Made by a program: the position numbers and the translations under genes. Positions 58,121 through 63,619 of a DNA stretch of 64,000 nucleotides are shown piece by piece. This DNA is from Asticcacaulis benevestitus DSM 16100 = ATCC BAA-896 (GTDB lineage: Bacteria; Pseudomonadota; Alphaproteobacteria; Caulobacterales; Caulobacteraceae): assembly GCF_000376105.1 (NCBI RefSeq), contig NZ_AQWM01000004.1, positions 109,630 to 173,629 of the forward strand, read 5' to 3'. The notes under the pieces are model-generated. The model saw only the letters and a list, made by a program, of their open reading frames with translations, did no database searches and was not told the DNA's origin. Position 1 is the stretch's first letter. Each line of letters opens with the position of its first letter.

Positions 58121-58353
58121 GCCCTGCCGCGCACGGCTTGAGCGCATAAAATGTCGCCTTTACGGTTACATCTCGTTCATGAACCCCTTTTAATTTGATT
58201 TAAAAGCAACCTTCCTTCACTTTAGCGTCAAGTTCGGTCGCTATAGACCGATGTTTTCCGGCTTTTGGCTCACCCTAAAGCTCTGCTCTGGCGCACTTTT
58301 CCTTAAACGCGACATTGAGTGAGGCCCGCGCCGAAAGTCCTTTGGAGGCCAGT

Positions 58354-59424
58354 ATGCGTAACGATGTTCTCAAATTCTCCCTGGGCGCGGTCGGCGTCCT
58401 CGCCCTGTTGACAGCCGGCACCGCCTCGGCGCAGGGAGCCGCCAACAACGACGGCCCTCAGATCGAACTGCGCGACATGGTGGCCCGCGTCGTTATCACG
58501 CCCGAAGACCGCAGCGACGTCGATATCCGCGTGCGCTACGGCAAGGTCAAGGTGCCGACCCTGATGGTGTCGCAACGTGGCAATGTCACCGTGCTCAACG
58601 GCCACCTCAGCAATCCGGCGCGCGGCACCGGCTTCAATTTCCGCATCAATATCCACGACGACGACGATGTGTCGGTCAACGGCGGCAAGGTGCATATTTC
58701 CGGCATCGGCATGGTGGATGTATCGGATCTGCCACTGGTCTTCGTTCGCGTCCCCAACAAGGCCGTGGTCAAGGATTCGGCCTATAGCTTCGGCCGCATC
58801 GGCCCCAGCAAGTCGCTGGACTTCATCATGAACGGCAGCGGCGAATGGGCCATTGATCCCGTCGGCGGCCAGCTCAGCATCATCAACAGCGGCTCGGGCA
58901 CCATCAATGTCTCCACCGCCGGCGACAGCATCGTCGACAATATGGGCTCCGGCGACATCAACCTCGGCACCGTGCGCAATCTCAAGGCCGTGCTGACCGG
59001 CTCCGGCAATTTCAACGTCAGCCAGAGCGCCAATACCCTGCTGCAGAACCAGGGCTCAGGCGACGTCACGCTCAGCCGCACCGGCGCCATCAAGGCTCAG
59101 CTCAATGCGTCCGGCGATTTGTCGCTTGGCAATGTCATGGGCGGGCTGACCGTGATCAATAACGGCTCCAGCGATATCAATGTCGGCCGCGTGGCAGGCC
59201 CGGTCACGCTCGATCTGGCCGGTTCGGGCGATGTCTCGATCTCGGAAGGCCAGGTCTCTGACTTCATGCTCAAGGGCTCCGGCTCGGGCGATGTCTCCTA
59301 CGGCGGCATCACCAACACGGTCAATGTCGATTCCAACGGCTCGGGTGATGTCAGCATCGCCAAGGCCACCGGCGCCGTCGTCACCAAGGTGGTCGGCTCC
59401 GGCGAAATGCACATCGGGCATTAG
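58354..59424 (+). CDS. Secreted GSGD-repeat protein (GIN/DUF2807-like beta-helix)
   Basis: A 356-residue exported protein with signal (SLGAVGVLALLTAGTASAQ) and ATG 58354 after TTGGAGG. From about residue 160 to the end it consists of short repeats with the pattern G-S-G-D/T-(V/I)-x-(V/L/I) (NSGSGTINVSTAG, NMGSGDINLGTV, TGSGNFNVSQS, NQGSGDVTLSRT, AGSGDVSISEG, GSGSGDVSYGGI, NGSGDVSIAKA), one turn of a beta-helix each of 20-22 residues. This matches the GIN/adhesin-head architecture (DUF2807) of putative surface or envelope-sensing proteins. Function unknown. Confidence 0.85.
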   Translation: MRNDVLKFSLGAVGVLALLTAGTASAQGAANNDGPQIELRDMVARVVITPEDRSDVDIRVRYGKVKVPTLMVSQRGNVTVLNGHLSNPARGTGFNFRINIHDDDDVSVNGGKVHISGIGMVDVSDLPLVFVRVPNKAVVKDSAYSFGRIGPSKSLDFIMNGSGEWAIDPVGGQLSIINSGSGTINVSTAGDSIVDNMGSGDINLGTVRNLKAVLTGSGNFNVSQSANTLLQNQGSGDVTLSRTGAIKAQLNASGDLSLGNVMGGLTVINNGSSDINVGRVAGPVTLDLAGSGDVSISEGQVSDFMLKGSGSGDVSYGGITNTVNVDSNGSGDVSIAKATGAVVTKVVGSGEMHIGH

Positions 59425-59529
59425 CCGCCTTAAATCTATCCTCTACGCCCAGCGCCGCGCTTCCATGGCGCTACGGCCTATCCGCGGCCTTTTATCCCCC
59501 GCTGTTCAGGCGAGGCGTAAGGTGTGGGC

Positions 59530-59952
59530 ATGACCCAGCCCCTCACCCCGTCCCACATCCCGCTCCCCGACCGACAGCGCCTGCGCCAACGCCAGCGCGC
59601 CGCGCAGCTTATCGCCGCCTTTGAGGCGACGTCACAGCAAACCGTCACCGAGATCAACTGCGCCGCCCGCGCCCTGATCGTGCTCGACCGCATGCTGACC
59701 CAGCTATGGACGGAACCGGGCGACACACCCGTTCGTCGCGCGAAGAACATAGCTGGCAGCGCGCCCGCCAAAGACGACCAGACACCCGACGAAAAGACAT
59801 CGGACGAAGATACCCGGAGCCAAGATACCGGTAGCGAAGAGACAGGCAGCGCACCGCCGCCTCTTAACCGCCGGCAGCACCGCGCCTTAGCCGCACGCAC
59901 ACGCATCACGCCCCAGGCAACGCCGTCAAGCCTTCGCTGTGAGAGCGGATAA
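59530..59952 (+). CDS. Hypothetical protein
   Basis: A 140-residue frame from ATG 59530 (a GTG two codons upstream is also possible). First part is a helical segment (RQRLRQRQRAAQLIAAFEATSQQTVTEINCAARALIVLDRMLTQLW), the second is acidic and disordered (KDDQTPDEKTSDEDTRSQDTGSEE), the end is basic. No family recognised. Composition and lack of frame-shadow alternatives make coding likely but unproven. It might bind nucleic acid or a partner through the helical part. Confidence 0.55.
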   Translation: MTQPLTPSHIPLPDRQRLRQRQRAAQLIAAFEATSQQTVTEINCAARALIVLDRMLTQLWTEPGDTPVRRAKNIAGSAPAKDDQTPDEKTSDEDTRSQDTGSEETGSAPPPLNRRQHRALAARTRITPQATPSSLRCESG

Positions 59953-60220
59953 TGGGGCGCTTTACCCCCTGCGACAGCCTGCCGCACACATTTCATCCGA
60001 AACGACCGCCGGATTTCAGGAAAATTTCCGAACTTTCACCACCACACGCTTAAGTCTTGTTGCGCCGCACAATAATCCGGCAACGTTAACGTTTTGTAAT
60101 TTTAAGTATTTGATTTTAAACACTTATTACAAATGATTCATGACATCCAATTCATTTGAACTCCGCACGTTGAAGGCGCATATGGGGGTCATCGCAACAC
60201 ACACCAAGGAGATATCCACC
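59953..60220. promoter_or_regulatory. AT-rich leader of the micropeptide array
   Basis: This 268-base gap contains an AT-rich block (60060-60145) with an imperfect inverted repeat GTAAT...AAGTATTT-GATTTT-AAACACTT...TTAC (60096-60130), 90 bases before the first peptide. It is the probable promoter and operator region for the array. Confidence 0.5.
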
Positions 60221-60304
60221 ATGACCACCCAAGTTTACACCGCCACCGCCCTCGCCGCCGGCACGCTCTTCATGATCGTCGCGCTCATCACCCTCGGCCT
60301 CTAA
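60221..60304 (+). CDS. Micropeptide 1 of three (27 residues, single helix)
   Basis: ATG 60221 to TAA 60302-60304, with a strong ribosome site AAGGAG (60206-60211). The product starts MTTQVYTATALAAG and continues TLFMIVALITLGL, one hydrophobic helix with no charged residue. It aligns with the next two peptides around LAA-x-T-x-FM. Third positions are almost all C or G, as in real genes of this organism. Single-pass membrane peptide; function unknown. Confidence 0.75.
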   Translation: MTTQVYTATALAAGTLFMIVALITLGL

Positions 60305-60329
60305 CTCAACCTCAAAAAGGAACATCACC

Positions 60330-60422
60330 ATGACCCATTCCATCGCCCCTATCGCCACCGTAACCGCCCTCGCCGCCCTGACCCTGTTCATGCTGGCCTC
60401 GCTGTTCACCGTCGGCATGTAA
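60330..60422 (+). CDS. Micropeptide 2 of three (30 residues, single helix)
   Basis: ATG 60330 to TAA 60420-60422, ribosome site AAGGAA (60317-60322). Sequence starts MTHSIAPIATVTALAAL and goes on TLFMLASLFTVGM. It shares the A-L-A-A-x-T-L-F-M core with peptide 1, and lies 25 bases after it. Hydrophobic, one predicted membrane helix, short polar head. Confidence 0.78.
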   Translation: MTHSIAPIATVTALAALTLFMLASLFTVGM

Positions 60423-60456
60423 GCCGCAACACCCTCATTCCATAAGGTACACGACC

Positions 60457-60543
60457 ATGACTCTCTCGATCCCCACCGTTTCGGCCCTGGCCGCTTTCAC
60501 CGCCTTTATGACCTTCGCCCTGCTGAGCCTCGGCCACCGCTAG
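60457..60543 (+). CDS. Micropeptide 3 of three (28 residues, single helix)
   Basis: ATG 60457 to TAG 60541-60543, ribosome site AAGG (60444-60447). Starts MTLSIPTVSALAAFTAFM and ends TFALLSLGHR. It has the same S-A-L-A-A-x-T-x-F-M core as its two neighbours but a basic tail. A hairpin terminator follows 29 bases later, closing a single transcription unit of three tiny genes. Confidence 0.78.
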   Translation: MTLSIPTVSALAAFTAFMTFALLSLGHR

Positions 60544-60571
60544 GCACCTTTTTGTATCTACGCATAAAATA

Positions 60572-60606
60572 AGGCGCGGAGAGCTCACCTCCCGCGCCTA
60601 TTTCTT
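60572..60606 (+). terminator. Terminator of the micropeptide array
   Basis: AGGCGCGG (60572-60579) pairs with CCGCGCCT (60592-60599), then ATTTCTTT follows: a rho-independent terminator just after micropeptide 3. Confidence 0.75.
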
Positions 60607-60672
60607 TGCCTTAACGCAACCTTGAGTTTTTTCGGCTAGGTTTTCAAAATAGATCCGCCGGAGTATGCGTTC

Positions 60673-61455
60673 ATGAACCCCAAACTGTCCTGTCAAGGAT
60701 GCCGTGATGGCGCCGACCTGCCCTTCGCCTTCACCATGGCTTTCCAGCCGATCCTTGACGCTAGCGAAGGCCGCATCTGGGGTTATGAAGCGCTGGTGCG
60801 CGGGCCGGAGGGGCAAGGCGCCGGCACGGTGCTTGATGAGGTCACGCCGCAAATGATGTACAGGTTCGATCAGGCGTGCCGTGTGCGCGCGATCGAACTG
60901 TTCGGTCAACTATCGCCGCATGACGACACGCGCCTGTCGATCAATTTCATGCCTAATGCCGTCTATGAGCCGTCGACCTGCCTCCGCGCCTCCCTGGACG
61001 CCGCGGCCCGCATTGGGCTCAATCCCAAACGCCTGGTGTTCGAATTTACCGAACATGAGCGTTTCACCGACACGGCCCATATTTCGAACATCGTCGCGGA
61101 ATATAAGCGCCTAGGTTTTATGACGGCGCTTGATGATTTTGGCTCCGGCTATGCCGGCCTGAACCTGCTGGCCAATCTCCAGACCGACCTGATCAAGATC
61201 GATATGGAACTGATCCGCGATATCAATGCCGACAGCGTGCGTCAGGCGATCGTAGCCGGTATCAAGTCGATCGCGCGGGCGCTCGATATCCAGGTCATCG
61301 CCGAAGGGATCGAATCCGAGGCCGAACTGACGACCTTGCGCGCCGCCGGTATATCGCTGTTTCAGGGCTATTATTTCGCCAGACCGCAGATCGAGGCCTT
61401 GCCCATGGTCGAGGGCTTTACGATCCGCTCCGCCGCACAAGCCCTAAGCGCTTAA
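60673..61455 (+). CDS. EAL domain protein (cyclic di-GMP phosphodiesterase)
   Basis: A 260-residue stand-alone EAL protein. After a short N-terminus with a C-x2-C pair (LSCQGCRDG), the domain begins TMAFQPILD and contains YEALVRG (the E-A-L glutamate), SINFMPN, LVFEFTEHE, ALDDFGSGYAGLNLL (D-D-F-G-x-G-Y), DLIKIDMELI, VIAEGIE and FQGYYFARP. All metal and catalytic residues expected for an active enzyme are present. It should hydrolyse c-di-GMP and so favour motility. The C-x2-C could bind metal or redox-sense; unproven. Confidence 0.93.
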   Translation: MNPKLSCQGCRDGADLPFAFTMAFQPILDASEGRIWGYEALVRGPEGQGAGTVLDEVTPQMMYRFDQACRVRAIELFGQLSPHDDTRLSINFMPNAVYEPSTCLRASLDAAARIGLNPKRLVFEFTEHERFTDTAHISNIVAEYKRLGFMTALDDFGSGYAGLNLLANLQTDLIKIDMELIRDINADSVRQAIVAGIKSIARALDIQVIAEGIESEAELTTLRAAGISLFQGYYFARPQIEALPMVEGFTIRSAAQALSA

Positions 61456-62089: not shown

Positions 62090-63619
62090 TTAACCCGGCG
62101 AGACCATGTTTTCCGGACGGACGAACTGGTCGAACTCTTCATTCGTCAGGTAACCGCCACCCACGGCTTCTTCGCGCAGGGTGGTGCCGTTCTTGTGGGC
62201 GGTCTTGGCGATCTTGGCGCAGGCGTCATAGCCCAGGCGGCCATTGAGCGCCGTCACCAGCATCAGCGAATTTTCCAGACCGCGCTTGATGTTGTCGAGG
62301 CGCGGCTCGATGCCGACCACGCAGTTGTCGGTGAAGGACACCGCCGCATCGGCCATCAGGCGCACGCTTTGCAGGAAGTTGTAGGCCATGACCGGGTTGA
62401 AGACGTTCAGCTCGAAATGGCCTTGCGAACCGGCGAAGGTCAGCGCGGCATTGTTGCCGAAGATCTGCACGCAGACCTGCGTCATCGCCTCGCACTGGGT
62501 GGGGTTGACCTTGCCCGGCATGATCGACGAGCCCGGCTCGTTTTCCGGCAGGGCCAGTTCGCCCAGACCCGAGCGCGGGCCGGAACCTAAGAAGCGGATA
62601 TCGTTGGCAATCTTGAACAACGAGGCGGCCACCGTATTGATGGCGCCGTGGCTGAAGACCATGGCGTCATGCGCTGCCAGAGCCTCGAACTTGTTCGGCG
62701 CTGTGGTGAAGCCCATGCCGGTGATGGCGGCGATCTTCTCGGCCACGCCCTCGGCGAAACCGATCGGGGCATTGAGCCCGGTGCCGACGGCCGTGCCGCC
62801 CTGCGCCAGTTGCATCAGCTTCGGCAGGGTCTGCTGGATTCGGTCGATGCCGTTGGTCAGTTGCTGGGTGTAGCCGCCAAATTCCTGACCGAGCGTCAGG
62901 GGGGTGGCGTCCTGCGTGTGGGTGCGGCCGATCTTGATGATGTCCTTCCACGCTTCGGCCTTGTCGTTCAAAGCATTACGAAGCGTTTGCAGAGCCGGCA
63001 GCAGGCGGTGAACGATCTCCTCGGCGCAGGCGACGTGCATGGCGGTCGGATAGGTGTCGTTCGACGATTGCGACATGTTGACGTGGTCATTGGGGTGGAC
63101 GGGCTTTTTCGAGCCCATCTCGCCACCCAGCATCTCGATGGCGCGGTTCGAGATCACCTCGTTGGCGTTCATGTTCGATTGCGTGCCGGAACCGGTCTGC
63201 CAGACGACCAGCGGGAAGTGCTCGTCGAGCTTGCCTTCCATGACCTCGTTGGCGGCGGTGATGATGGCCTTGCCGATGGCGGGATCAAGCTTGCCGAGCG
63301 CCATGTTGGTTTCGGCGGCGGCGCGCTTGACGATGCCGAGCGCACGCACGATCGGCAGGGGCTGCTTTTCCCAGCCGATCTTGAAGTTGCCTAAGCTCCG
63401 CTGGGCCTGCGCGCCCCAGTACTTTGAGTTATCGACCTCGATGGGGCCAAAGGTATCGGTTTCCGTGCGGAAGGTGGGCTTCTGGGTCATTTTCGGTGTC
63501 TCCGTTGGAGGTGTCGGATCGGCAGGGCCGGCTAAAGGCGCTTGGGGCTGCACGGTGAAATCCGTCGCCGTGATGCGACGTTTCTTCTTCGATCCGGACA
63601 GCCAGTCTAACAGGCCCAT
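62090..63619 (-). CDS. fumC: Class II fumarate hydratase with an N-terminal extension
   Basis: FumC converts fumarate to malate in the citric acid cycle. The conserved part starts at residue 44 ([32 protein letters not shown]) and has all class II motifs: [53 protein letters not shown], and the signature [16 protein letters not shown]. Ahead of it lie 43 residues ([20 protein letters not shown], then proline-rich) not found in usual FumC proteins (about 460 residues). ATG 63619 has the better ribosome site (AAGGAGG); ATG 63490 has GGAG, so both starts may be used. Confidence 0.9.

Follow-up and report, generated by a model that had tools for sequence, protein, structure and literature searches.

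What might three tiny, tandem and hydrophobic open reading frames (ORFs) contribute to Asticcacaulis benevestitus DSM 16100, and to what cellular system do they belong? The frames lie within a window of 64,000 nucleotides (nt), the whole stretch of DNA analyzed here (contig NZ_AQWM01000004.1, forward-strand positions 109,630 to 173,629; positions below are those of the window), between a gene of the DUF2807 (Toastrack) family and a gene that we take, from its sequence, to be fumC, encoding fumarase. A sequence-only reading of this DNA had proposed a tandem array of paralogous membrane micropeptides; it had not seen the operator common to the array and Toastrack genes, the Toastrack link itself, or two of the flavours, B and C, in which the array occurs. 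By computation we observe conserved ORFs, coding selection, a common promoter element and linkage to Toastrack genes. That the array promoter has the same control sequence as the Toastrack genes points to a role of the peptides in a response of the cell envelope. The explanation that we favour, and to which we give an even chance, is a separately transcribed micropeptide operon in a Toastrack regulon, whose predicted inner-membrane helices would join exported Toastrack proteins in an envelope response of the Psp/Lia type.

A tandem micropeptide family in Asticcacaulis

Three consecutive frames of 27, 30 and 28 amino acids (aa) at 60221-60543 are confirmed, each led by a Shine-Dalgarno sequence (SD) that ends 8-9 nt 5' of its ATG, and all three peptides contain the A-L-A-A-x-T-x-F-M core in an alignment with 12 invariant columns. 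The array DNA is a 67-nt direct-repeat family with spacings of 118 and 118 nt. Each peptide possesses a single hydrophobic segment, as had been read from the letters, with 19-residue Kyte-Doolittle maxima of 2.17, 2.17 and 1.86 for ORF1, ORF2 and ORF3, and the three combined hold one K or R and no D or E. An alternative in-frame extension of ORF1 to 40 aa is unlikely to be used because its ATG falls inside the inferred -10 box. The leader 5' of the array is AT-rich, as stated earlier, and the earlier argument that chance is unlikely is borne out by a profile of the three peptides, which matches congeneric arrays at E values down to 6.5e-14. The three ORFs represent a family of putative membrane micropeptides that gene finders would probably skip.

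How widely is this family distributed? Our family sample comprised 390 Caulobacteraceae genomes, of which 25 are Asticcacaulis (G000, G022 and so on; G023 is A. taihuensis, NZ_FMTS01000001.1, and G010 is Asticcacaulis sp. AC466, NZ_AWGE01000012.1). Up to about 8 kilobases (kb) beside fumC were read in all 25, and 24 carry one to three hydrophobic micro-ORFs downstream of it, the exception being G024. Flavour A (27-30 aa, plus 46-aa forms) occurs in 11 genomes, as triplets in G000, G022, G023, G016 and G010, as a pair in G021, as singles in G019 and G008, and as one 46-aa with one 28-aa form in G002, G009 and G011. Flavour B (24-25 aa) is found in 8 genomes, with triplets in G012, G014, G005, G003, G018 and G015, a pair in G001 and a disrupted first frame in G006, and flavour C, a single 45-46 aa peptide that ends in a polar tail, is found in 5 (G020, G013, G017, G004 and G007). 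Frames and their order are conserved in relatives, paralogue order being kept inside each flavour.

Searched across Caulobacteraceae, the core family is present and, by sequence profile, confined to this one genus. A 21-row profile matched the window flavour in 11 of the 390 genomes at E <= 0.01, all of them Asticcacaulis, and missed flavour B. Profiles of flavours B and C give strong matches in Asticcacaulis only (E 8.5e-5 or better and 1.6e-20 or better, respectively); matches in other genera begin at E 0.0015 for B and 0.0026 for C, are mostly long frames, and are regarded as noise. Profile-profile comparison joins A with C (probability 95, E 2.9e-8) in an alignment that includes the 46-aa forms of G002, G009 and G011. 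No array was found in 60 control stretches downstream of fumC from 19 other genera, hand-picked for genus spread from 123 other-genus genomes with a fumC match; the stretches were about 5 kb, five of them shorter, while one Asticcacaulis array sits 5.3 kb away, and the hydropathy cut was 1.0 in the control versus 0.5 and 0.7 in Asticcacaulis. Four single ORFs passed in the control (G258, G275, G277 and G303), none of them tandem.

The micropeptide ORFs evolve as coding sequence. By Nei-Gojobori counting, ratios of nonsynonymous to synonymous change (dN/dS) range from 0 to 0.66 in 18 overlapping genome pairs, the pair G000-G022 excepted. Pooling six of the 18 pairs, selected afterwards with each genome used at most once and tree paths not checked, gives pN/pS 0.36 (synonymous pS 0.212, nonsynonymous pN 0.077, Fisher p 1.7e-10). 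This synonymous excess bears on whether the RNA could be the functional product and the ORFs its by-products, a view that would fit the promoter element being the most conserved part of the locus and the 5' leader hairpins seen by eye in flavours B and C. However, the frames and most SDs are kept, profiles match at the peptide level, and no Rfam family reached threshold for the array (two sub-threshold matches are taken as chance), so that we regard a functional RNA as highly improbable.

An operator-like element common to the array and Toastrack genes

The array promoter carries an operator-like element, TTAMA-N5-TTCATGAC-N6-TTAANTTG, whose TTAMA block starts ten bases upstream of TTCAT. Its core, TTCATGAC-N-T-N4-TTAATTTGAA, occurs in 23 of the 24 array leaders, with at most 1 mismatch, and is followed by CAT at a fixed 17 nt; the sole exception is the leader of G019, in which the element is degenerate. 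We infer that TTGAA(A/C) and the CATAT-like sequence are -35 and -10 boxes. The right end of the element overlaps the -35-like box and, since it reaches into this box, activation and repression are both possible. With a scoring matrix trained on 7 distinct array sites, only two sites in the 64-kb window reach 12 bits, at 58176 and 60137, and none does in 599,526 positions of outgroup DNA. Interpretations of the leader as RpoH, CtrA, FNR/FixK or PhoB-like, compared by eye with consensus sequences, were dropped or left undecided, and the available portion of PMC10688885, which concerns XRE factors, prints no motif letters for comparison with the element. Visual inspection also showed small hairpins close to the inferred 5' end, GGCGG..CCGCC in flavour B leaders and GAAGC..GCTTC in flavour C leaders.

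The same element precedes a defined set of Toastrack genes. We term canonical the strongest DUF2807 gene of each genome (25 of 25) and non-canonical the two further ones that 23 genomes each contain; the latter number 46 by our grouping, all from the family search, with none in G019 or G024. In Asticcacaulis the element, at 13.8 bits or more, stands before 45 of the 46 non-canonical genes or their operons. For the 34 genes away from the array there are 31 sites of 17.2 bits or more, two of 13.8 and one of 8.3, and a DUF2807-like frame starts 14-171 nt past the site in 34 of 34 loci, the 8.3-bit site included; 5 of the 34 loci entered via the pattern search, to which several others were also known. 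Mononucleotide shuffles of these loci reached a maximum of 9.4 bits (n=102). Seven array-adjacent non-canonical genes have sites of 23.4 (four), 24.3 (two) and 13.9 bits (one). The remaining five are those of flavour C, where the element is followed by the peptide ORF and then by the Toastrack gene, across a gap of 31 nt (G020, G013 and G004), 25 nt (G017) or 4 nt (G007). The 25 canonical genes have no site above 11.8 bits on either strand, over about 2.2-3.5 kb each. A search of the 25 genomes with the core alone returned sites before arrays and before DUF2807 genes, plus some that were unplaced. G024, which has no array, has neither the element nor any non-canonical DUF2807 gene. In G000 the canonical DUF2807 gene (L226 354-2070, G000:C3), which lacks the element, lies behind a HAAS frame identified with Pfam, itself preceded by a PadR-like frame recognized by eye. 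The link of micropeptides and Toastrack genes through an element or regulon was not found in the open-licence PMC literature searched.

The flavour C arrangement raises the question of whether the peptides might be leader or arrest peptides, in which translation of a short ORF regulates the downstream gene, as the 45-46 aa ORF lies 4-31 nt before the Toastrack gene. Yet the third ORF is succeeded by a terminator-like hairpin in both the window and G023, where no gene shares the operon, three separate ORFs with SDs would be unnecessary for a leader, and in flavour B array and Toastrack genes are unlinked; a leader function is therefore very unlikely.

A rho-independent terminator 3' of the array had been proposed. 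A hairpin with a T-rich tail does stand there (z -4.3 for the folding of 60544-60620), and its stem, AGGCGCG/CGCGCCT, is present in 9 of the 11 flavour A genomes, but a strict terminator scan of 59900-60700 listed no terminator, this hairpin included, and we call it terminator-like. Together with the kept frames and order, the coding-type evolution and the conserved promoter element, it supports the proposal of a tandem paralogous micropeptide family.

This architecture also bears on a type I toxin-like family, small hydrophobic and potentially toxic tandem peptides restrained by antisense RNA. The type I toxins Ldr, Ibs and TisB are short hydrophobic peptides, sometimes tandem, as for Ldr and Ibs, and the size, hydrophobicity and tandem paralogues of the array are similar. 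Unlike these toxins, the array has one promoter element, and in the window one terminator-like hairpin, for three ORFs; Toastrack genes have the same element, and the peptide gene of five species forms an operon with one of them. In addition, a weak scan of 59900-60700 detected no promoter-like site on the minus strand, where antisense transcription would start, and the Rfam result given above holds here too. A toxin role is, in our estimation, distinctly unlikely.

The element beyond Asticcacaulis

The extended element, allowing up to 2 mismatches, was found in 156 of the 390 family genomes, and its reversed pattern in 1. The 156 divide into 23 of the 25 Asticcacaulis genomes versus 133 of 365 outside, across 9 of 22 genera. 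One genus, g5, supplies 97 of the 133 by our count, mostly with one site each. Behind the element lies a Toastrack-like gene with a signal-peptide-like start in 7 of 7 loci read, all from g5, and Pfam confirmed both of the two g5 genes submitted to it. The g5 sites are more palindromic than those of Asticcacaulis, their half-sites pairing at 12 and 13 of 14 positions (two examples) versus 5-11 (five examples). The element thus seems tied to a Toastrack gene across a broad range, and the micropeptide operon appears to have been added in Asticcacaulis. A further 36 genomes outside Asticcacaulis and g5 have the element (g6, g9, g13, g15, g17, g20 and g21).

Known relatives, neighbours and rejected partners

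The three window peptides had no match in Pfam, NCBIfam, PADLOC or PHROGs, and the 21-row profile had none among PDB sequences; members of the other flavours were likewise unmatched, 0 of 5 in Pfam and 0 of 2 in PADLOC and PHROGs. A phage or defence origin was rejected, there being no phage record (tblastn, ORF2), no viral-contig relative and no match in PHROGs or PADLOC, in searches that did not extend to plasmid or E. coli records. Two neighbours were rejected as partners: fumC, an anchor only, which is convergent with the array, and an EAL gene, which is beside the array in only 3 of 25 genomes (G000, G022 and G016) and is regarded as a likely insertion. A 142-aa ORF at 59524-59952, between the Toastrack gene and the array, is split or diverged in relatives and has no Pfam or NCBIfam match.

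Table 1. Features of the array and its surroundings in the window.
Feature	Position	Strand	Details
Element before the neighbouring Toastrack gene	58166..58197	+	1 mismatch; 23.4 bits
Non-canonical DUF2807 (Toastrack, head GIN) gene	58354..59424	+	356 aa; Pfam PF10988, E 3.2e-12; signal-peptide-like N-terminus by eye
Operator-like element of the array promoter	60127..60158	+	TTAMA-N5-TTCATGAC-N6-TTAANTTG, 1 mismatch; 38.6 bits
Inferred -35 box, TTGAAC	60156..60161	+	TTGAA column conserved, fixed 17 nt to CAT; consensus inference
Inferred -10 box, CATATG	60179..60184	+	CAT at fixed distance in 23/24 leaders; consensus inference
SD of ORF1, AAGGAG	60206..60211	+	From sequence
Micropeptide ORF1	60221..60304	+	27 aa; ATG start; single hydrophobic stretch
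SD of ORF2, AAGGA	60317..60321	+	From sequence
Micropeptide ORF2	60330..60422	+	30 aa; ATG start
SD of ORF3, AAGG	60444..60447	+	From sequence
Micropeptide ORF3	60457..60543	+	28 aa; ATG start
Terminator-like hairpin and T-rich tail	60572..60607	+	AGGCGCGG...CCGCGCCT then ATTTCTTT; dG -18.8
EAL-domain gene	60673-61455		Between array and fumC; NCBIfam best match RimA-like, below cut-off
fumC	62090..63619	-	Convergent with array; synteny anchor only; one match in each of 25 genus genomes

A putative envelope-response regulon

Small membrane proteins often act as accessory subunits, such as CydX, the small subunit of cytochrome bd, and CydX, AcrZ and MgtS are small membrane regulators of about 30-50 aa with one transmembrane helix. 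The array peptides are of similar size with one predicted helix, and their uncharged single helices in conserved order could suit accessory subunits or regulators of another membrane complex, the regulon in common with Toastrack then being incidental. Unlike CydX, AcrZ and MgtS, they are tandem paralogues with no sequence match and no partner complex nearby, the only conserved neighbours are fumC and, in some of the Asticcacaulis genomes, DUF2807, and although the peptides are genus-restricted, their connection with Toastrack recurs, whether linked, operonic or unlinked. We consider another complex unlikely.

PMC11237479 groups DUF2807, DUF4097 and DUF2154 under the name Toastrack, a domain that recurs as a partner of Psp/Lia envelope-stress systems, and also reports PadR-HAAS systems that include Toastrack; we therefore propose an envelope-response regulon comprising exported Toastrack proteins and micropeptides. 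Several features are reminiscent of those systems: the co-control of Toastrack genes with small or short-transmembrane membrane proteins; the position of the canonical G000 gene behind a HAAS frame, as described in PMC11237479; and a Toastrack/DUF2807 protein that belongs to the same unit or regulon (the PF10988 neighbour, 45 of 46 genes, the operon in five species). There are also clear differences. PspA, PspC and LiaI-LiaF-TM were not seen beside the loci read, no genome search for these families having been made, the Asticcacaulis peptides have no domain match and the Toastrack protein looks exported, and micropeptides under a common element are not described in the portion of PMC11237479 available. 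A DUF2807 protein is reported as an adhesin in Porphyromonas in PMC10949514.

In the envelope-response explanation that we favour, envelope disturbance would engage a DNA-binding regulator that acts via the TTAMA-containing element and that would control both the micropeptide operon and the exported Toastrack/DUF2807 genes. The single-helix, nearly uncharged peptides would insert in the inner membrane, may associate with each other through small-residue faces, and would work with, or tune, the Toastrack proteins. Activity of the promoter, translation of the peptides and their insertion in the membrane are what we infer, and the stress signal and a physical partnership of peptide and Toastrack are what we conjecture. 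More tentatively, and at well below even chances, this could be viewed as a new envelope-response module, in which an element that many Caulobacteraceae possess, and that did not turn up in the literature searched, drives exported Toastrack and Asticcacaulis added an operon of one to three uncharged micropeptides as membrane partners.

Several observations weigh against this explanation or parts of it. PMC11237479 predicts intracellular Toastrack, whereas the Asticcacaulis proteins look exported. In flavour B the element-bearing Toastrack genes are unlinked to the array; G019 has kept one peptide without a recognizable element or non-canonical DUF2807 genes; and the 8.3-bit Toastrack site, at L279 of G011, falls inside the shuffle range. 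Profile-profile similarity of A and B is weak (probability 28, E 6e-4), and membership of flavour B therefore rests on place, architecture and promoter. SDs, by our pattern, are found on all ORF kinds except the middle flavour B ORF in G014, G006, G003 and G005; in G006 the first 24-aa frame (L069, about 1082-972 nt ahead of the 3' end of fumC) is disrupted and extends to 36 aa; and 7 of the 8 flavour B genomes have no T-tailed hairpin within 110 nt. As for coding selection, dN/dS is 1.10 for the pair G000-G022, where 11 differences were counted, and about 0.65 for the 45-46 aa flavour, on which constraint is weakest.

What the finding offers is that orphan tiny ORFs become a testable regulon, with a precise DNA element and a defined co-controlled gene set, made up of the micropeptides and, in 23 genomes, two Toastrack genes each. 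Natural variants are on hand, with the array as triplet, pair, single, long-tailed, operonic, unlinked or absent. A conserved operator can expose micropeptide operons that profiles miss, flavour B being a case in point. Toastrack/DUF2807 proteins are widespread and little understood, and a co-controlled membrane micropeptide would provide a way in.
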